DNA from: Methanocorpusculum sp.
GTDB taxonomy: Archaea > Halobacteriota > Methanomicrobia > Methanomicrobiales > Methanocorpusculaceae
DNA: 64,000 bases
Reading direction: 5' to 3'
Assembly (NCBI GenBank): GCA_017387505.1
Contig: JAFOFB010000015.1
Coordinates: 225,469 to 289,468, forward strand
Shown here piece after piece: positions 35,100 to 62,628 of the stretch. How positions within the stretch are numbered: the first letter of the stretch is position 1; each line of letters starts with the position of its first letter. The notes beneath the pieces are model-generated. The model saw only the letters and a list, made by a program, of their open reading frames with translations. It did not search any database and was not told the origin of the DNA. The translations under genes and the position numbers were made by a program.

Positions 35100-35253
35100 G
35101 ACGTATTTTCTGTATTCTATTTTCTTTGTTTCCGGGTTTTGTATTGACATGATAATTCAAAACGATTAGTGTGAACTGGTCATGGACAAAGGAACGGGGA
35201 TCCTACACAAACACACAACCCTCTTACCTTCCAAAAGCCAATATTATAACACT

Positions 35254-37857
35254 ATGGCACCTGAAAAAAAGCTCACCCCTGCTATGCAGCAGGTAAAAAT
35301 GTTCAAAGAACAGTATCCTGACTGTATCCTGTTCATGCGCATGGGAGACTTTTACGAAACCTTTTTTGAAGATGCCGAAATATGCTCACGCGAACTTGAC
35401 CTGGTGCTGACATCCCGATCCAAAGACCCCGAAGGAAACCCGATTCCACTCTCCGGAATACCATACCATGCCGTAGACTTATACCTGCCCCGCATGGTTC
35501 GAAAAGGATACAAGGTTGCCATCTGTGAACAGGTAGAAGACCCGAAACAGGCAAAAGGAGTCGTAAAACGCGACGTAATCCGCGTAGTAACGCCAGGCAC
35601 AGCTATAGACGCCGACATAATCCCCGGACAGGGAGCACACTATCTGATGGCGGCAAACCCTGACCTGAAAAAAAATATAATCGGCCTCGCCTTCCTCGAC
35701 ATCACAACAGGTGAATTCTTCATCAAAGAAATACCCGCATCGGAAGGCTTCTCCGCTCTCGCAACAGAAATCGAACGCTACTCACCGCTCGAAATCCTTG
35801 TGCCGCAAGACACTCCGGCAGACTTAATCCCGTTCCTTGCATCAACAGGCCGTGTCATTACTCCGGCACGTTCCATCTTCTTTGACAACGCAGAGCAGAC
35901 CTTATGCGAACAGTTCGGCGTAGCCTCTCTGGATGGATTTGACACAAGCTCAGAGCTTTGCCTCTCTGCTGCGGCGGCGGCCGTCTGTTACAGCAAAGAA
36001 ACACAGAAAGTGTCTCTTTCTCATATCCAGGGCTTCTCGAAAAAGTACGACACTGACGCAATGATTCTCGATGCCGTATCGCTTCGAAACCTGGAAATCC
36101 TAACTCCGCTTAGAGGAGATAGAAACGACACGACACTCTTTGGATTCTTAAACAGAACCAAGACGCCAATGGGGGCCCGCGCCCTTCGCAGCGTCTTAAC
36201 AAGACCATCGACATCTCCATCCGAGATTAACTTACGCCTCGATGCAGTGCAGTACTTTGTCGAGCGTCCGGTGCTTCTCTCATCTGTTCGAAACGTTCTT
36301 GCCCGCCTTTCAGACATTGAGCGTATCGCAGGCCGCATCTCGTATGGAAACGCATCTCCGCGTGACCTGCTCTCGCTGTCCGCAAGTCTTTCCGCGATTC
36401 CAGCCCTATCAGAAGAACTTGCATCCGTCGATGGGCTTCTTCGAGACAAACTCTTAGAGATTCCTGAGTTTGCCGGAATCTCTGACTTAATCCTCTCTGC
36501 AATCGTAGAAGAACCGCCGGTAGTTTACAAAAACGGAAATGTCATTCGCGCAGGCTACAGCGAAGACCTGGATGCACTACGCGACGTTGTTGCAAACGGC
36601 AGAAGCTGGATTGCTGAACTCCAGAACACCGAGCGCGAAAGAACAGGCATCAAGTCATTAAAAATCGCCTACAACAACGTCTTTGGATACTACATCGAAG
36701 TAACGAAAGCAAACTTAGACAAAGTACCGCTTGAGTACGAGCGAAAACAGACAACCGCAAGCGGCGAGCGCTTCACAATCCCTGCACTTCGCGAGCGTGA
36801 AGCACTGATGGCTCAGGCCGATGACCGGATGCTTGCTCTCGAAATCCAGCTCTACGAGGAACTGATTGAAATCCTTCGAGGGTATGTCCGCGAACTTCAG
36901 TCTGCGGCAGCGGCAGTTGGTGTAATCGACAACCTCGCCTCATTTGCCGACCTTGCCTTAACAAATGACTACGTAAGGCCGGAACTTGTCGAAAGCCCCG
37001 AGCTCTTAATCCGCGACGGACGCCATCCGATTGTCGAAGACGCAGTGCCTGGGGGATACGTTCCAAACGACACCGAGATGAGTGCTGTTGAAAAACAGAT
37101 TCTCATCTTAACCGGAGCGAACATGGCGGGTAAATCCACCTACATGCGAAGCGTTGCACTTCTTTCAATAATGGCTCAGACAGGCTCTTTTGTTCCGGCA
37201 CGCTTCGCAAGAGTTGGAATCGTTGACCGCGTGTTTACAAGAGTTGGAGCATCCGATGACTTAGCCGGCGGTCAGAGTACCTTCATGGTCGAGATGTTAG
37301 AGCTTGCAAACATCTTAAACAACGCAACCGAGAGAAGTCTCATCCTCTTAGACGAAATCGGACGCGGAACAAGCACTGTTGACGGATACTCAATCGCACG
37401 CGCTGTTCTCGAGTACCTGCACGGAAAAGGTGCGGCAGGTCCGAGGACACTTTTTGCAACGCACTTCCATCAGCTCATATCTATTGAGAGCGAACTTCGC
37501 CGCGTCAAAAACTACCACTTCGCAGTAAAAGAGGACGCACATGACATCACCTTCCTTAGAAAACTCATCCCCGGAGCGACTGACAGAAGTTACGGTATCC
37601 ATGTCGCAAAGATTGCGGGCGTTCCAAAGAAAGTCTTAACGAGAGCAGAAGAGGTCTTAAAGTCCGCACTCCGCGAGGATGCAGTATCTGGAGGACAGAA
37701 GTACTACACACAGATGCTTCTCTTCGATTCCGCACCTGCAGAAGCAGAGCCGTCAGCGGTCGAAGAGCGCCTGAAAGAAGTCAATCCGAATGATATCACA
37801 CCAATGCAGGCATTAATGCTCGTCAACGAACTCAAAGCCTTAATGGAGAAGAAGTAA
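35254..37857 (+). CDS. mutS: DNA mismatch repair protein MutS
   Basis: An 867-residue MutS1. The mismatch-reading motif FMRMGDFYETFFEDAE (Phe-x-Glu type) is near residue 30. Walker A LTGANMAGKSTYMR is near 617, and the ABC-type stretch DEIGRGTSTVDG near 700 and ATHFHQL near 735 are also present. The frame starts at 35182, but the first 24 residues have no family resemblance, so ATG 35254 (MAPEKKLTPAMQQ) is preferred. The stop overlaps the mutL start by 1 bp. A bacterial-type MutS-MutL pair is patchy in archaea and was probably acquired from bacteria. Confidence 0.95.
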   Translation: MAPEKKLTPAMQQVKMFKEQYPDCILFMRMGDFYETFFEDAEICSRELDLVLTSRSKDPEGNPIPLSGIPYHAVDLYLPRMVRKGYKVAICEQVEDPKQAKGVVKRDVIRVVTPGTAIDADIIPGQGAHYLMAANPDLKKNIIGLAFLDITTGEFFIKEIPASEGFSALATEIERYSPLEILVPQDTPADLIPFLASTGRVITPARSIFFDNAEQTLCEQFGVASLDGFDTSSELCLSAAAAAVCYSKETQKVSLSHIQGFSKKYDTDAMILDAVSLRNLEILTPLRGDRNDTTLFGFLNRTKTPMGARALRSVLTRPSTSPSEINLRLDAVQYFVERPVLLSSVRNVLARLSDIERIAGRISYGNASPRDLLSLSASLSAIPALSEELASVDGLLRDKLLEIPEFAGISDLILSAIVEEPPVVYKNGNVIRAGYSEDLDALRDVVANGRSWIAELQNTERERTGIKSLKIAYNNVFGYYIEVTKANLDKVPLEYERKQTTASGERFTIPALREREALMAQADDRMLALEIQLYEELIEILRGYVRELQSAAAAVGVIDNLASFADLALTNDYVRPELVESPELLIRDGRHPIVEDAVPGGYVPNDTEMSAVEKQILILTGANMAGKSTYMRSVALLSIMAQTGSFVPARFARVGIVDRVFTRVGASDDLAGGQSTFMVEMLELANILNNATERSLILLDEIGRGTSTVDGYSIARAVLEYLHGKGAAGPRTLFATHFHQLISIESELRRVKNYHFAVKEDAHDITFLRKLIPGATDRSYGIHVAKIAGVPKKVLTRAEEVLKSALREDAVSGGQKYYTQMLLFDSAPAEAEPSAVEERLKEVNPNDITPMQALMLVNELKALMEKK

Positions 37858-39695
37858 TGGGAAAAATCCGTGTTCTCGATGAGGAAACAATCAACCACAT
37901 AGCAGCAGGCGAAGTGGTTGAGCGTGCGGCATCTGTGGTCAAGGAGCTTGTCGAAAACGCAGTTGATGCAAAGGCGAAGAAGATTATAATCGACCTCGCC
38001 GCAGACACTGCGACAGTGAAGCGGATTTCCATCACCGACGACGGCGTTGGACTGAGCGCAGAAGACGCAGTTCTCGCATTCCGTCAGCATGCAACAAGCA
38101 AAATCTCAAAGCCCGATGACCTCGCAGAGATTGTAACTCTCGGTTTCAGAGGCGAAGCTTTAGCAAGTATTGCGGCTGTATCCAAAGTCACGTTCACCTC
38201 AAAAGAACGCGGCTCATCAGAACCTGAAGCCGTGCAGGTCGTAATTCACGGCGGTGAACTGATTCGCCAGACCTTTGTCGGAGCGCCGGAAGGAACGACA
38301 ATTATTGTGGAGGATTTGTTCTACAACACCCCGGCACGCCGCAAATTCCAGCGCTCGGTGTCCACAGAGCTTTCGCACATCTATGACATGGTCGAAAGAA
38401 TCGCTCTAGCCCACCGCGAAATATCCTTTGTTCTCCTCTATCAGGGAAAGGAGAGATTTAGAACCTACGGCACAGGCTCTTATCCTGACGCTGTTGCGGC
38501 AGTCTTTGGAACAACCTTCGCCCGCGACCTGCTTCCGGTCGAAAAAACAGGAGGCATCGCCGAGGTATCAGGTTATGTTTCAAAGCCCGGATGCAATATG
38601 CGCCCAACTCCTACCCGCTTCTATCTGACAATCAACGGCCGCCAGATTACATCCAAGTCTCTTCAGTGGGCTGTTCGCGAAGGGTACGGCACGCTTCTTC
38701 CAAAGGGCATGTATCCTGCTGCTTTTTTAGACATCAAAATCGACCCGCGCGAAGTGGATGTCAACGTACATCCGACCAAACGCGAGGTGCGCCTTTCAAG
38801 AGAAAGGGATGTGGGTTCAGCAGTTCGAGACGCCGTATATACTGCTCTTCATGATGACGAAATCTTCTCCGCAGCTCCTGCATCGGTAAAGCCTGAACAG
38901 CAGAAACTCTTCGAGGAAAAGAAAGAGGAGGAAGCAGAAGTGCGTGCGGAAAAGACATATGTGCCTGCAGAGCAGACTCCATCTCCAAAACGCAGCCTGC
39001 ATGAAGCTGTCATGTCTTATCTGACACCGCAGGCACCGGCAGAGCCTGTCCGCTCATCTCTTCGCCAGACCGAGATTCAGTTAAGGCGTACTGAGACTTC
39101 GGCAGAGGAAAAGGCAGACGTTGAAGTGCCTGAGGTCTTAGGACAGATAGGGGACACATACATCGCCTGCCGGAATGCGAAGGGTGAGCTTGTAATCGTA
39201 GATCAGCATGCAGCACACGAGCGTGTAATGTACGATCAGCTCTTAAAGAAAGTCGAGGAAAAGAAGGCATCTCAGGAACTCTTAGCACCTGTAACACTCA
39301 CACTATCTCGGGCAGAATCTGCACGCATGCCTGAACTTTCGGAAATCTTAGCACAGGCAGGTTATGTAATCGAACCATTCGGTCAGGATGTCTGGGCTGT
39401 TCGTTCGGTTCCTGTAATCTCATCAAGACTTGGTGATGTAAAAGTCATTCACGAAATTATCGCCGAAGCCGCAGGCATCACTGAGAAAAACCCAGAGCGT
39501 GTATTAGATAGGGTTGTAAAAACTGTTGCCTGCCGTGCTGTTGTTAAAGGAAACACGCCTCTTACCAAAAACCAGATGGAGCGTCTCTTAAGACAGCTTT
39601 CGGAGACTGATTCACCTTATACATGTCCTCACGGAAGACCTACAGCGCTTGTTCTCTCGAAGGAAAAACTCGCCTCAATGTTTCTTAGGACTTGA
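37857..39695 (+). CDS. mutL: DNA mismatch repair protein MutL
   Basis: A 612-residue GHKL ATPase that couples mismatch recognition to strand incision. The N-terminal ATPase motifs VKELVENAVDA near residue 28, DDGVGL near 60 and GFRGEALASI near 98 are intact. A low-complexity acidic linker spans about 340-410. The C-terminal domain has the metal motif DQHAAHE near 447, ACRAVVKGN near 560 and CPHGRPT near 592, so endonuclease activity is expected, consistent with no MutH. The last Glu of DQHA-X2-E-X4-E is Asp here. Confidence 0.95.
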   Translation: MGKIRVLDEETINHIAAGEVVERAASVVKELVENAVDAKAKKIIIDLAADTATVKRISITDDGVGLSAEDAVLAFRQHATSKISKPDDLAEIVTLGFRGEALASIAAVSKVTFTSKERGSSEPEAVQVVIHGGELIRQTFVGAPEGTTIIVEDLFYNTPARRKFQRSVSTELSHIYDMVERIALAHREISFVLLYQGKERFRTYGTGSYPDAVAAVFGTTFARDLLPVEKTGGIAEVSGYVSKPGCNMRPTPTRFYLTINGRQITSKSLQWAVREGYGTLLPKGMYPAAFLDIKIDPREVDVNVHPTKREVRLSRERDVGSAVRDAVYTALHDDEIFSAAPASVKPEQQKLFEEKKEEEAEVRAEKTYVPAEQTPSPKRSLHEAVMSYLTPQAPAEPVRSSLRQTEIQLRRTETSAEEKADVEVPEVLGQIGDTYIACRNAKGELVIVDQHAAHERVMYDQLLKKVEEKKASQELLAPVTLTLSRAESARMPELSEILAQAGYVIEPFGQDVWAVRSVPVISSRLGDVKVIHEIIAEAAGITEKNPERVLDRVVKTVACRAVVKGNTPLTKNQMERLLRQLSETDSPYTCPHGRPTALVLSKEKLASMFLRT

Positions 39696-57088: not shown

Positions 57089-57973
57089 ATGCAAGAAATT
57101 ATTATCGGCATTGGAGTAACTGCCCTTGCGGGAGCTCTCGCAGCGGTTGCAGGTGCAGCTGAAGATACTGAGTCCAACATCGGATCACAGGGTGACCCGA
57201 ACTCTCAGGTTCAGCTCGCACCGCAGATGGGATACACTCACCGTATCTACAACAAAGCAGTGAGTGGAGAACCACCGGCATACACCCTGTGGGTGACCCT
57301 TGCTTGTGGTGTTGCATGGGCATTCCTCATGATGGGAATGAATGCAATCCTCGCAATTGTCTTAGGAACAGTTCTCGCAACTATCGTGCAGGGAGTTTAC
57401 GCAACTACTGCATACCTTGGAAGAACCGCAAGTCTTTCCAAGTTCGGACAGCCGGTCTTTACTGATGTTCTGAAGTCAGTAACCACCGTGACCATGGGTC
57501 ATGCATTTGTAGCAATCTTTACCACCGTGGTAATTTGTTACCTTCTCGCAACTGTAATTGGCCACCCGTTCAGCCTTCCGCTCCTCGGTATCGTATGGGG
57601 TCTTGCACTTGGTGCAGCAGGTTCCGCAACCGGAAACCCGTACTACGGTAAGGAGCGTCAGTACCAGAACCAGAAGTTCGGTGCTGGTGTCCCGATTTCT
57701 GCATCCGGAAACATCGTCCGCTACGCAGAAGCAGGTCAGAGAAGCTCTATCGACAACGGTTTCTTCACCGCAAAGTTCGGAGGACCAGCATCTGGTCTCT
57801 GTTTCGGTTTAATCGTCTTCTTCGAGCTGTGGCGTACCGTCCTCTTCGAGCACTACCTCGCAGGATGGGGAGCAGTCATCGCAGGTGCAGTCATCATTAT
57901 CATCTTCATGGTAATTGACCGCTATGTCGAGAAATGGGCACGTGAGAACTACGGTCCATACACGGAGGCATAA
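57089..57973 (+). CDS. mtrE: Tetrahydromethanopterin S-methyltransferase subunit E
   Basis: A 294-residue membrane subunit with about six helices; GALAAVAGAAEDTESNIGSQ near residue 15 and LGAAGSATGNPYYGKERQYQ near 173 are MtrE landmarks. With MtrC and MtrD it forms the Na+-conducting membrane part of the complex. It begins the mtr operon. The start is ATG 57089 after GGGAG. Confidence 0.96.
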   Translation: MQEIIIGIGVTALAGALAAVAGAAEDTESNIGSQGDPNSQVQLAPQMGYTHRIYNKAVSGEPPAYTLWVTLACGVAWAFLMMGMNAILAIVLGTVLATIVQGVYATTAYLGRTASLSKFGQPVFTDVLKSVTTVTMGHAFVAIFTTVVICYLLATVIGHPFSLPLLGIVWGLALGAAGSATGNPYYGKERQYQNQKFGAGVPISASGNIVRYAEAGQRSSIDNGFFTAKFGGPASGLCFGLIVFFELWRTVLFEHYLAGWGAVIAGAVIIIIFMVIDRYVEKWARENYGPYTEA

Positions 57974-57975
57974 AT

Positions 57976-58776
57976 ATGAGCGCAATTGCAGCAAAAGCAG
58001 GAGCTGACGCTGGCGCATTCCAGCCGGTTCCGTCAATCATCGCCCTCGTCCTTGCAATCATCGTTATTGCAGTCGGATTCGTCCTTGGCGTTGGGCAGAC
58101 TCTTTGCTTAATCGTTCTCGGCGCAGCCTTAATCGCATTTGGTGTCCACTTCGTCCCAGTCGGAGGAGCTCCGGCAGCAATGGGTCAGGCACCAGGTATC
58201 GCAACCGGTGTCCCGATGCTTGCAGCAGGTGCAGGTCTCGCAGGACTTTTCGGTGGTGCATGGGCAGCAGAGTTAGGTTTAGCAGTCGCACTCGCTGGTG
58301 GAGCAATCGGCGGTGCATTAATGATGGCAATCACCTGTTTAATGGTGAACATGTCCTACGTCTTTGGTATGGGTATCCCACCGGCATCTGGTAAGATCGA
58401 GAAAGATCCACTTACCGGTTACACTCAGCCAGAGTTCAAGTCCCAGGGTACTGAGGGTCACGGACTTCCATTCATCTCCTACGTTGGCGGTGTCATTGGT
58501 GGTCTCCTTGGTGGTCTTGGTGGAACACTCATCTACCTTGAACTTCTCGCATTCTACGAGGCAGTAATGCCGGCAGCAGACGCTGTTGGTCTTGCAGGTA
58601 TCCTCGCAGTTGCAATGTTCCTTGTTATTGCAGTGCTTGCTGCATACAACATTACCGGAACTATCGAAGGTCCGCACGACCCGAAGTTCAAGAGATTCCC
58701 ACGTGCAATTATCGCAGCAATCCTCGCATCTGGTCTCTGCGGTCTTCTTGCACTCTTACTTGTGGCGTTAGTCTGA
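57976..58776 (+). CDS. mtrD: Tetrahydromethanopterin S-methyltransferase subunit D
   Basis: A 266-residue integral membrane subunit with about six helices rich in Ala and Gly. GVHFVPVGGAPAAMGQAPGI near residue 56 and NMSYVFGMGIPPASGKIEKD near 123 match MtrD. It lies 2 bp after mtrE and 10 bp before mtrC. Confidence 0.96.
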   Translation: MSAIAAKAGADAGAFQPVPSIIALVLAIIVIAVGFVLGVGQTLCLIVLGAALIAFGVHFVPVGGAPAAMGQAPGIATGVPMLAAGAGLAGLFGGAWAAELGLAVALAGGAIGGALMMAITCLMVNMSYVFGMGIPPASGKIEKDPLTGYTQPEFKSQGTEGHGLPFISYVGGVIGGLLGGLGGTLIYLELLAFYEAVMPAADAVGLAGILAVAMFLVIAVLAAYNITGTIEGPHDPKFKRFPRAIIAAILASGLCGLLALLLVALV

Positions 58777-58786
58777 GGTGTAAAAA

Positions 58787-59605
58787 ATGTCAGTAAAAGT
58801 TGAAGCATCCCACGGTGGAATCCCGCACGGCAAGATTGCCGCAGCAGGAATCATCATTGCACTGGTATCTCTTTACATCGCCGTCATCGGCCATGAGGTC
58901 CTTGGCTTCGATTACTTTGCCTTCTTCGGCGGTATCGCAGCAATTGGTGCCTTAATCTGGGGTAACAGCGCAATCAAAAGACTTTGCAGCTACGGTATCG
59001 GAGCAGGTGTTCCGTCCGCAGGTATGCTTGCATTCGGTTCCGGTCTCTTTGGAATGTTCCTTGGTATCGCAATCGGTGCAATGACCTCTGTCTGGATTAT
59101 CCCGGTTGCAGTCTTAGTTATCGCACTCATCACTGGTGTCATTCTTGGATGGATCGCAAACACCGTCCTTAACATGAAGATTCCGGTCATGATTCAGTCT
59201 CTCGCAGAACTCGCAGCAGTTGGTGCACTGACCACCCTTGGTCTCCGCACTGTTGCAATTGGCGGTCTTGAGCTTGAAGCAGGATTCGTCTTTGTAGCTG
59301 TCGGTTTCATCGCAGTTGCATTCATGCTCGGTGCAATCGCACTCCAGCACCCGTTCAACGCTTGCCTTGGTCCAGGAGAGACTCAGGACAGAACCAACAT
59401 GCTCGTTATCGAGTGTGGTTTCCTTTCCATGATTATCATGGCAGTCATCTCCTTCGTTGCAGTCTCTGCAGTCGCAGGATGGATTTCCTTAGTCATCGCA
59501 ATCATCGGATGGGCAGTGTCCTACAAGAAATACATCGCATTATCCAAGCGCGATGCAGCAGCATGGCTCGACGCAAAGCCGTTCGTCGATGCGGAGGAAG
59601 AGTAA
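58787..59605 (+). CDS. mtrC: Tetrahydromethanopterin S-methyltransferase subunit C
   Basis: A 272-residue integral membrane subunit with about seven helices. KRLCSYGIGAGVPSAGMLAF near residue 64 and ACLGPGETQDRTNMLVIECG near 190 are characteristic. It forms the membrane core with MtrD and MtrE. Confidence 0.95.
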   Translation: MSVKVEASHGGIPHGKIAAAGIIIALVSLYIAVIGHEVLGFDYFAFFGGIAAIGALIWGNSAIKRLCSYGIGAGVPSAGMLAFGSGLFGMFLGIAIGAMTSVWIIPVAVLVIALITGVILGWIANTVLNMKIPVMIQSLAELAAVGALTTLGLRTVAIGGLELEAGFVFVAVGFIAVAFMLGAIALQHPFNACLGPGETQDRTNMLVIECGFLSMIIMAVISFVAVSAVAGWISLVIAIIGWAVSYKKYIALSKRDAAAWLDAKPFVDAEEE

Positions 59606-59618
59606 GGAGGAAACAAAA

Positions 59619-59909
59619 ATGGGATATGTACTTGTATTACCTGAATTTGGCCTCGTCGCAGACCCAGTAGCTGGTGTCGTTACGACCGCAGGTGTCTCCT
59701 ACCAGCCTGTCATCGATCAGGTTGCAGAACTCGAAAAGATTGCAGATGACTTAGTCAACATGCTTTCCGGCGAGGGCAACTTCTTAAACAGCTTCCCAGG
59801 CCGTGAAAAGACCTTAACCAAAGCAGGAGCAATCACTGCACTGTGGTACGGTCTTGGCGTTGGACTTGCAGTAGCATTCGTCCTCGCACTTGCACTTGGA
59901 GGTATCTAA
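59619..59909 (+). CDS. mtrB: Tetrahydromethanopterin S-methyltransferase subunit B
   Basis: A 96-residue protein with a soluble N-terminus ([20 protein letters not shown]) and a single C-terminal helix ([20 protein letters not shown]). The start is ATG 59619 after AAGGAGG; the frame extends into mtrC but that part is not family-like. MtrA follows after 1 bp. Confidence 0.94.
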
Positions 59910-59910
59910 A

Positions 59911-60414
59911 ATGGCTGACAAGAAATCCCCGGCAGCAGGATGGCCAATCATCCAGGGTGACTACCACACTGGTGACGCAAACAGCCCAGTCGCTGTTATC
60001 ACTATGGGTTCCCACCTTGATGAGACCGCAATCTGTGCAGCAGGTGCAGCACTTGCAGGATCTTGTAAGACCGAAAACCTCGGTATTGAAAAGGTCGTTG
60101 CAAACATCATCTCCAACCCGAACATCCGCTTCGTTCTTCTCTGTGGTACTGAAGTTAAGGGTCACTTAACCGGTCAGTCCTGGGTTGCAATGCACGAGAA
60201 CGGTGTTGAGGGTGGAAAGATCGTCGGTTCCAAGGGAGCAATTCCGTTCCTCGAGAACCTGACCGCAGAGCACATCAAGCGCTTCCAGGAGCAGATTGAA
60301 CTCGTCAACATTATGGAGACCGAAGACCTTGGTCAGATCTCCGCAAAGATTGCAGAGTTAACTGCACGTGACCCGGGAGCATTTGGTGCAGACCCAATCG
60401 TAGTTCAGATTTCT
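59911..60414 (+). repeat. Direct repeat of the MtrA corrinoid domain, copy 1
   Basis: These 504 bp recur at 60849-61352 (offset 938 bp). The encoded peptides differ only at residues 49, 92, 101 and 134, and silent differences are few in the first half. This suggests a recent duplication or continuing gene conversion. Confidence 0.9.
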
Positions 60415-60645
60415 GACGACGAGGGTGGAAGCGAAGAAGCTGTCGCTGGTGAGGAAGAACCATTAACCGGCGAGATGGCACTCATTACCTCCCGTATCAA
60501 GGCAATCCAGATGATGGTTACCGACATTGGTTACCGCAACAGATTCGCATCTGGTGTCTACGGTGGTAAAGTTGAAGGTGTCATGATTGGTTTAATCCTT
60601 TCCTTACTCGTCTTCGGAGCACTCGTTGGAGTACAGGTGATTTAA
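59911..60645 (+). CDS. mtrA: Tetrahydromethanopterin S-methyltransferase subunit A (corrinoid)
   Basis: A 244-residue subunit of normal MtrA build: a soluble corrinoid-binding domain (about residues 1-168), an acidic linker, and a C-terminal segment with one membrane helix ([18 protein letters not shown], 223-240). His85 in [12 protein letters not shown] corresponds to the lower ligand of cobalt in characterised MtrA. It carries the methyl group from H4MPT to coenzyme M. The first 168 codons are almost identical to those of the second copy at 60849. Confidence 0.96.
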
Positions 60646-60646
60646 A

Positions 60647-60847
60647 ATGGCAGGATCTACTATTAGAATGGCCGCCATTGACAAGATGGTGGATGACATC
60701 AGATACAAAGGACAGATTCTCGCCAGAACCAACAAGGTCGAGTCCGCATTCAGCGGTAACGCACTCCTTGGATTCGGTGTTGGTGTTGCACTCTCCCTCG
60801 TTCTGATCCTCGGTCCAGTCCTTGCTATGTTCCTTGGAGGTCTCTAA
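60647..60847 (+). CDS. mtrF: Tetrahydromethanopterin S-methyltransferase subunit F
   Basis: A 66-residue protein. The [20 protein letters not shown] segment near residue 16 matches MtrF, followed by one membrane helix ([20 protein letters not shown]). It lies 1 bp after mtrA and 1 bp before the MtrA-MtrG fusion gene. Confidence 0.88.
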
Positions 60848-60848
60848 A

Positions 60849-61352
60849 ATGGCAGACAAGAAATCCCCGGCAGCAGGATGGCCAATCATCCAGGGTGACT
60901 ACCACACTGGTGACGCAAACAGCCCAGTCGCTGTTATCACCATGGGTTCCCACCTTGATGAGACCGCAATCTGTGCAGCAGGCGCAGCACTTGTAGGATC
61001 TTGTAAGACCGAAAACCTCGGTATTGAAAAGGTCGTTGCAAACATCATTTCCAACCCGAACATCCGCTTCGTTCTTCTCTGTGGTACTGAAGTTAAGGGT
61101 CACTTAACCGGTCAGTCCTGGACTGCAATGCACGAGAACGGTGTCGAAAACGGTAAAATCGTTGGCTCTAAGGGAGCAATTCCGTTCCTTGAGAACCTTA
61201 CCGCTGAGCACATCAAGCGCTTCCAGGAGCAGATTGAGCTCGTCAACCTTATGGAGACCGAAGACCTTGGTCAGATCTCCGCAAAGATTGCAGAGTTAAC
61301 TGCACGCGACCCGGGAGCATTCGGTGCAGACCCAATCGTTGTCCAGATTTCT
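60849..61352 (+). repeat. Direct repeat of the MtrA corrinoid domain, copy 2
   Basis: The partner of 59911-60414. Similarity stops abruptly after the codons for DPIVVQIS, where the linker to MtrG starts. Confidence 0.9.
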
Positions 61353-61592
61353 GAGGGCGGCGACGAGTCCGGAGGAGCTGCAACTGTTGCATCCGCAAAC
61401 CCGCAGTTCCTTGAAATCGAGAAGCGCCTTAACGCTATCGAGAAGAAAATTGAGTTCACGGACGCAGAAATTGCAATGCGTACCGGTAGAAAGATTGGTC
61501 GTGACATCGGTATCCTCTACGGTCTCGTAGCAGGTACTATCGCATTCCTGGTGATCGCTTTCACTTGGATGTCCGGCTTATTATTCATCTAA
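60849..61592 (+). CDS. MtrA corrinoid domain fused to MtrG
   Basis: A 247-residue protein. Residues 1-168 repeat the MtrA corrinoid domain with four substitutions and keep the cobalt-ligand His85. A short linker (169-183) leads to residues 184-247, a complete Mtr[20 protein letters not shown], then [15 protein letters not shown] and a terminal membrane helix. MtrA's own anchor region is absent. It occupies the expected mtrG position, and no separate mtrG exists here. The protein would put a second corrinoid domain in each Mtr protomer. The start is ATG 60849; the upstream extension overlaps mtrF and is not conserved. Confidence 0.93.
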
Positions 61593-61605: not shown

Positions 61606-62628
61606 ATGTTCAAGTTTGAAAAAGAACAGCAGGTCTTTGACTTTAACGGAACTAAGATCGGAGGACAGCCGGGAGAATACCCGCGTGTCATGTCCCCGTC
61701 GATCTTCTACAACAAACACGAGATCGTCTTAAACGATCACACTGGTGAGATTGACAAAGCAAAAGCAGAAGCACTCTGGAACCGCTGTCAGGAATTAACT
61801 GACATCACTGGTAACAAGTTCTTCCTCCAGATCCTTGCAGAGCACGGAGAGGCTTTCGAGTCCTACTTCAACTGGTTCGACAGCATCGACAGCAAGACTG
61901 CATTCCTCATGGACTCTTCCGCACCGGAAGCACTGGTTCACGCAACCAAGTACGTCACTGAGGTTGGTCTCGCAGACCGCGCTATCTACAACTCCATCAA
62001 CGGATCCATCCTTCCGGAGAACATCCAGGCACTCAAAGAGTCCGATGTCAACTCCGCAATTGTCCTCGCATTCAACCCAGGAGAGCCAACCGTCGCAGGA
62101 CGTGAAAAGGTTCTTACTGAGGGTGGCGTTGCAGGTCAGGAGAAGGGTATGCTTCAGATCGCAGAAGAGTGCGGTATCACCCGCCCGATCCTCGACTCTG
62201 CAGCAACTCCGCTCGGACTTGGTGCAGCAGGATCCATGCGCGAAATTCTCGCATGCAAAGCAATCCACGGTCTCCCGACAGGTGGTGCATACCACAACAT
62301 GACTGTTTCCTGGACCTGGCTCAAGCGCTGGAGAAAGAACGTCTTAGCAGATGGATACAAGGGTAAGGACCTTCTCTTCGAACAGATGGCACACCACCAC
62401 TTCGGAGGAATGGAGGGTATCCGCCAGACTGCATGGTCTTCCGCAGATGTCGGATGTAACATCATGGCAATGACCCTTGGTGCAGATTTAATCATGTACG
62501 GTCCAATCGAGAACATGGAAGGTGCAGCAACCGCAGCAGCATTCTGTGATATCGTTATGGCAGAAGCATTCCAGGACTTCGGCGGAACTCCAGCAGTTAC
62601 CGACGGTCCAATCAACAAACTTATCTAA
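61606..62628 (+). CDS. mtrH: Tetrahydromethanopterin S-methyltransferase subunit H
   Basis: A 340-residue TIM-barrel subunit that transfers the methyl group from methyl-H4MPT to the corrinoid of MtrA. FKFEKEQQVFDFNGTKIGGQ at the start, LMDSSAPEALVHATKYV near residue 102, and MSVSWTWLK-type segment seen as NMTVSWTWLKRWRKN near 231 are family landmarks. It is soluble and peripheral. It closes the mtr operon. Confidence 0.97.
   Translation: MFKFEKEQQVFDFNGTKIGGQPGEYPRVMSPSIFYNKHEIVLNDHTGEIDKAKAEALWNRCQELTDITGNKFFLQILAEHGEAFESYFNWFDSIDSKTAFLMDSSAPEALVHATKYVTEVGLADRAIYNSINGSILPENIQALKESDVNSAIVLAFNPGEPTVAGREKVLTEGGVAGQEKGMLQIAEECGITRPILDSAATPLGLGAAGSMREILACKAIHGLPTGGAYHNMTVSWTWLKRWRKNVLADGYKGKDLLFEQMAHHHFGGMEGIRQTAWSSADVGCNIMAMTLGADLIMYGPIENMEGAATAAAFCDIVMAEAFQDFGGTPAVTDGPINKLI

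Follow-up and report, generated by a model that had tools for sequence, protein, structure and literature searches.

A second MtrA corrinoid domain fused to MtrG in the mtr operon of Methanomicrobiales

In methanogenesis, Mtr links the transfer of methyl groups to the export of sodium. The locus described here raises the question of why an mtr operon should carry a second MtrA corrinoid domain in one frame with MtrG, and whether such a gene is real, old and of use to the complex. The window, that is, the whole stretch of DNA analysed, comprises 64,000 nt from Methanocorpusculum sp. (GCA_017387505.1, contig JAFOFB010000015.1, positions 225,469 to 289,468, forward strand). It contains a complete mtr operon in the order mtrE-D-C-B-A-F-(A'G)-H, located 3' of the mcr genes, with all genes on the plus strand. 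The operon begins with mtrE (57089..57973), an open frame whose start was set by its ribosome-binding site and whose name rests on gene order and sequence, followed by mtrD (57976..58776) and mtrC (58787..59605), open frames that match mtrD and mtrC, respectively, of other mtr operons as tblastn queries. Next stands mtrB (59619..59909; TIGR04166, 91.8 bits against a cut-off of 50), with its start placed from the sequence at a stretch of 11 protein letters not shown here. The gene mtrA (mtrA-1, 59911..60645) encodes 244 aa with a corrinoid domain and its own membrane anchor (TIGR01111, 335.7 bits), and is followed by mtrF (60647..60847; 66 aa; NF009776, 76 bits against a cut-off of 64), by mtrA'G (mtrA-2b, 60849..61592; 247 aa), in which the MtrA corrinoid domain is fused to MtrG, and by mtrH (61606..62628; TIGR01114, 349.2 bits). 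The frames of mtrA, mtrF and mtrA'G are all open, start with ATG and have a ribosome-binding-like sequence upstream. Elsewhere in the window, at 35182-37857 and 37857-39695, neighbouring genes resemble the mismatch-repair proteins MutS and MutL when read by eye. MutS and MutL are uncommon among archaea.

For the fusion to be called, the NCBIfam cut-offs of mtrA (TIGR01111, 249 bits) and mtrG (TIGR01149, 50.65 bits) were applied, and A'G exceeded both in one frame in the profile search (297.2 and 68.2 bits, respectively). Residues 1-168 (60849..61352) match PF04208 with 283.5 bits over profile positions 1-171 of 173, which is the whole MtrA corrinoid domain, and the cobalt-ligand His85 (61101-61103) is kept in both mtrA and A'G. 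The two MtrA domains share 95% DNA identity across 522 nt that begin at the ribosome-binding site and end near codon 169, beyond which they are no longer similar. A linker of Gly, Ala, Ser and acidic residues follows (61353..61397), in which in-frame ATG, GTG and TTG are absent, and it leads to the MtrG part (61398..61589), one long helix that TIGR01149 matches at residues 184-237. This tail covers positions 11-64 of the 70 in the MtrG profile, with about ten N-terminal residues missing, and the MtrG part is near-complete, not full. Genome-wide, we counted two MtrA domains, one MtrF and one MtrG, the last being the fused copy; the MtrG search of the genome found no stand-alone mtrG. Because MtrG has no other source in this genome, essentiality of the fusion is plausible as judged from gene content. 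Accordingly, the first-pass annotation, made from the DNA letters, had correctly read the gene order around 59911-61592, the retention of MtrA residues 1-168 with His85 and the lack of a separate mtrG. It had also stated that the MtrA anchor was exchanged for a full MtrG, of which the fusion stands and the word full does not.

In the predicted model of A'G (mean pLDDT 72, built from only 14 sequences), residues 1-165 form a globular domain, the linker that starts near residue 170 is of low confidence, and a single helix spans residues 185-245. Compared by Foldseek with the cobalamin-bound (5LAA) and apo (5L8X) structures of MtrA, the globular domain gave TM scores of 0.85-0.88 by target length. 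As modelled, the A' domain has the fold of MtrA.

Close matches in named genomes came from Methanocorpusculum species, with protein identities of at most 97%, in agreement with a place of the window in this lineage of Methanomicrobiales. MtrG was present in 85 of 100 relatives, mostly inside a frame of about 230-320 aa. We fetched 79 operon regions and added the window to make the full set. Both full copies in an identical layout were found in 70 operons of the order, including the window, and one further operon has both copies with the mtrA copy slightly cut. Nine operons end at a contig end within the repeated mtrA domain or the linker (L125, L126, L132, L134, L148, L151, L158, L172 and L177), and in such broken assemblies searches for mtrA, mtrF and mtrG miss or truncate genes. 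Among all of these fetched operons, no counterexample to the fusion was found in Methanomicrobiales; the fetched genomes of the order for which the fusion was not listed are broken at contig ends. Genomes of the order without any MtrG match are mostly incomplete, and three of 77 good-quality genomes lacked MtrG. On the other hand, when 394 genomes of the phylum were surveyed, the MtrG frames listed outside the order were 73-143 aa long and are therefore unfused. With 70 operons of the order showing this fusion in full, chance is excluded. The A'G architecture is thus the normal mtr operon of Methanomicrobiales and not a local oddity. The comparison with related genomes proposed by the first-pass annotation has in this way borne out the fusion itself, whereas a reading of the fusion as something new or local is not supported, considering that the arrangement is order-wide and has been in print since 2015.

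MtrF surveys of two phyla were run to look for further fusions. In families f10 and f12, long MtrF frames turned out to be [AF] arrangements with one MtrA domain, and no MtrA-MtrF fusion of the Methanococcales type was found in the second phylum surveyed, where this group is probably absent from the sample. Family f14, taken to be relatives of Methanocella, includes two genomes with an MtrA-MtrF fusion beside a normal mtrA (L198 and L199) and one with a single mtrA (L200), and the parallel fusion is therefore patchy within this family. In the phylum of G429, many genomes have a single operon mtrA plus a second MtrA elsewhere, of about 185-200 aa, which looks too short for a membrane anchor. 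Extra corrinoid domains are therefore common there by another route.

The history of the two copies was followed in a tree of 140 MtrA domains, both copies from each of 70 genomes. The copies pair by genome or small clade, so that 61 label changes are needed against one for a single origin, and a single A'G clade was rejected (AU p = 1.35e-05). Paralogs within a genome have a mean identity of 96.9% versus 76.8% for orthologs, and a median dS of 0.086 versus 1.36. The likeness of the copies, at 0.90-0.98 before codon 170, is about 0.3 beyond it, and likewise falls off over some 15 bases ahead of the start codon. In all 70 operons, A'G is flanked by mtrF and mtrH and shares the junction motif, around NPQ-[FIY]-[LV]-E, as well as the conserved MtrG part. 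Read from these sequence comparisons, the order-wide pattern fits concerted evolution of one ancient fusion that would have been kept uniform through gene conversion. In the five-genome clade of the window, A'G forms a separate branch (support 100/99), and the copies have therefore been distinct since the common ancestor, with no full-length conversion since. Ten genomes have widely diverged copies (dS > 0.5), yet dN is about 0.10 or less. The most diverged pair, in operon L179 (genome G072), is 84% identical in protein with a dS of about 1.15, and is a natural case of lapsed conversion where the copies could be functionally told apart.

With regard to the function of the extra domain, D17, K53, T54, E55, N56, G58, N65, H85 and I111 are invariant in 140 of 140 domains, their roles in contacting cobalamin and in the His-Glu-Ile linkage being transferred by alignment from published MtrA work. 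In recently converted genomes this conservation is a weak argument for function, because gene conversion itself copies residues into A'G, and it is the diverged lineages that carry the argument. Among A'G orthologs of clades where the copies stayed apart, dN/dS is 0.05-0.06, which fits strong purifying selection on the extra domain, and both copies are under purifying selection. We also considered a decayed or cofactor-free A' domain, which the invariant binding residues and the low dN/dS make unlikely.

Near-identical repeats do break assemblies, as in the nine fetched operons that stop in the repeat or linker, and it might be argued that near-identical MtrA copies were wrongly chained here and that the fusion is not real. 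However, the same gene order with both copies occurs in single-contig genomes (G014, G016, G033, G045 and others), and the five close relatives form their separate, well-supported A'G clade, so that we regard an assembly error, including the chimera against which the first-pass annotation had warned, as practically out of the question. The grouping of copies by genome in the tree could also be produced by a recent tandem duplication and fusion in each lineage, instead of by conversion of one ancient fusion. This would need dozens of identical events, considering that the mtrF-mtrH position, the junction motif and the MtrG part are shared by all 70 operons; moreover, homogenisation is confined to the domain and does not extend to the tails. 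We consider separate duplications to be extremely improbable.

If the fusion is real and old, the protein could still be cut, or MtrG could be made from an internal start, leaving the complex with an ordinary MtrG and a detached corrinoid domain. Many relatives do carry ATG or GTG in frame close to where the domain ends, and the linker is of low confidence in the model, as if disordered. In the window, however, the junction scan found no ATG, GTG or TTG at codons 161-209, and the first Met after the junction, residue 210, lies within the conserved helix and has no ribosome-binding site; several other genomes likewise have no such codon in that stretch. As far as can be told from these codons, no start at the junction would release the separate MtrG that the first-pass annotation had allowed for, and we judge a cut or separately translated product very unlikely. 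An intact fusion may also act mainly by docking or structurally supporting MtrH, or by dosage, without itself turning over catalytically. In favour of this, complexes with a single MtrA work without the extra domain, and MtrH has been modelled as a dimer binding MtrA domains. Against it, the cobalt ligand, the Glu-Ile linkage and all checked polar contacts to the nucleotide tail are kept, even in pairs with a dS near 1. A role in docking or dosage is therefore unlikely, although it deserves more weight than the three preceding explanations.

We consider it probable, with good though not full confidence, that mtrA-2b goes back to an ancient in-frame fusion of an additional MtrA corrinoid domain with MtrG, kept in every sampled complete operon, that A'G stands in the place of MtrG as a second methyl shuttle, and that the copies are kept alike by conversion. 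In the solved Mtr complex (8Q3V), MtrG is a long stalk helix adjoining MtrA, with its N-terminus in the cytoplasm. Given this description and the lack of any other MtrG, A'G would take the place of MtrG in the central stalk. In solved Mtr, MtrA tethers its corrinoid domain through a disordered, Glu- and Gly-rich linker, and the A'G linker is similar in make-up. A'G may accordingly be pictured as holding a second tethered corrinoid domain that, like the first, would pick up methyl groups at MtrH and deliver them to MtrCDE, and gene conversion, in keeping both domains alike, would let both fit the same surfaces of MtrH and MtrCDE. The two corrinoid domains per protomer expected by the first-pass annotation agree with the fusion and the intact cobalt ligand, and up to six such domains might be present per trimer, for three MtrCDE units. 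Related lineages work with a single MtrA, and the reaction as such therefore does not require the second domain. Our searches brought up neither biochemical nor structural data for an Mtr that carries the fusion, with no such structure in the PDB and nothing relevant in the literature on its proteomics.

A further reading is tentative, and we give it slightly less than an even chance. In a two-armed Mtr with two cobamide-loaded domains per protomer (six per trimer), one domain could take up a methyl group at MtrH during the docking of the other at MtrCDE, and the sodium pump would turn over faster; the MtrF fusions of Methanococcales and Methanocella would then be independent inventions of this solution. 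A second corrinoid domain was gained independently in at least three lineages, and is kept near-identical via long-lasting gene conversion, which points to the number of corrinoid arms as relevant to how the pump works.

The MtrA-MtrG fusion is already known, and this genome extends a published case by one species. Working with eight Methanomicrobiales, Methanocorpusculum labreanum among them, Wang et al. 2015 (G3, PMC4632066) gave the gene the name mtrA-2b and established its gene conversion through tree tests, GENECONV and RDP; a 2018 survey (PMC6053082) recovered mtrA-2b again. The published mtrA-2b shares with A'G the order Methanomicrobiales, the operon slot flanked by mtrF and mtrH, a normal mtrA preceding mtrF, the joining of an MtrA domain to MtrG and homogenisation with mtrA-1, and there is no difference of substance, with about nine times as many genomes examined here. 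The same paper described mtrA-2a, an MtrA-MtrF fusion in Methanococcales and Methanocella arvoryzae. Like A'G, it adds an MtrA domain to a single-helix stalk subunit and coexists with a normal mtrA, but its fusion partner is MtrF and not MtrG, and it is the type present here in L198 and L199. A study in PNAS Nexus 2023 (PMC9982363) noted that mtrF and mtrG are often fused and that other lineages have an [AF]F operon. The [AF]F arrangement of TACK, Methanoliparia and ANME-1 resembles A'G in joining MtrA to an MtrF-like anchor, but has a single MtrA domain and a duplicate mtrF; the f10 and f12 genomes also have one MtrA domain. With the solved Mtr complexes (8Q3V and 9QTQ), A'G shares its parts by sequence, the A' part matching the MtrA chains and the tail matching the MtrG chains, whereas in those complexes MtrA and MtrG are separate proteins and MtrG has no cofactor domain. 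The solved structures that we found, from Methanothermobacter and Methanosarcina, thus both come from species with a separate MtrG, and the question is therefore directly testable with a complex from Methanomicrobiales.
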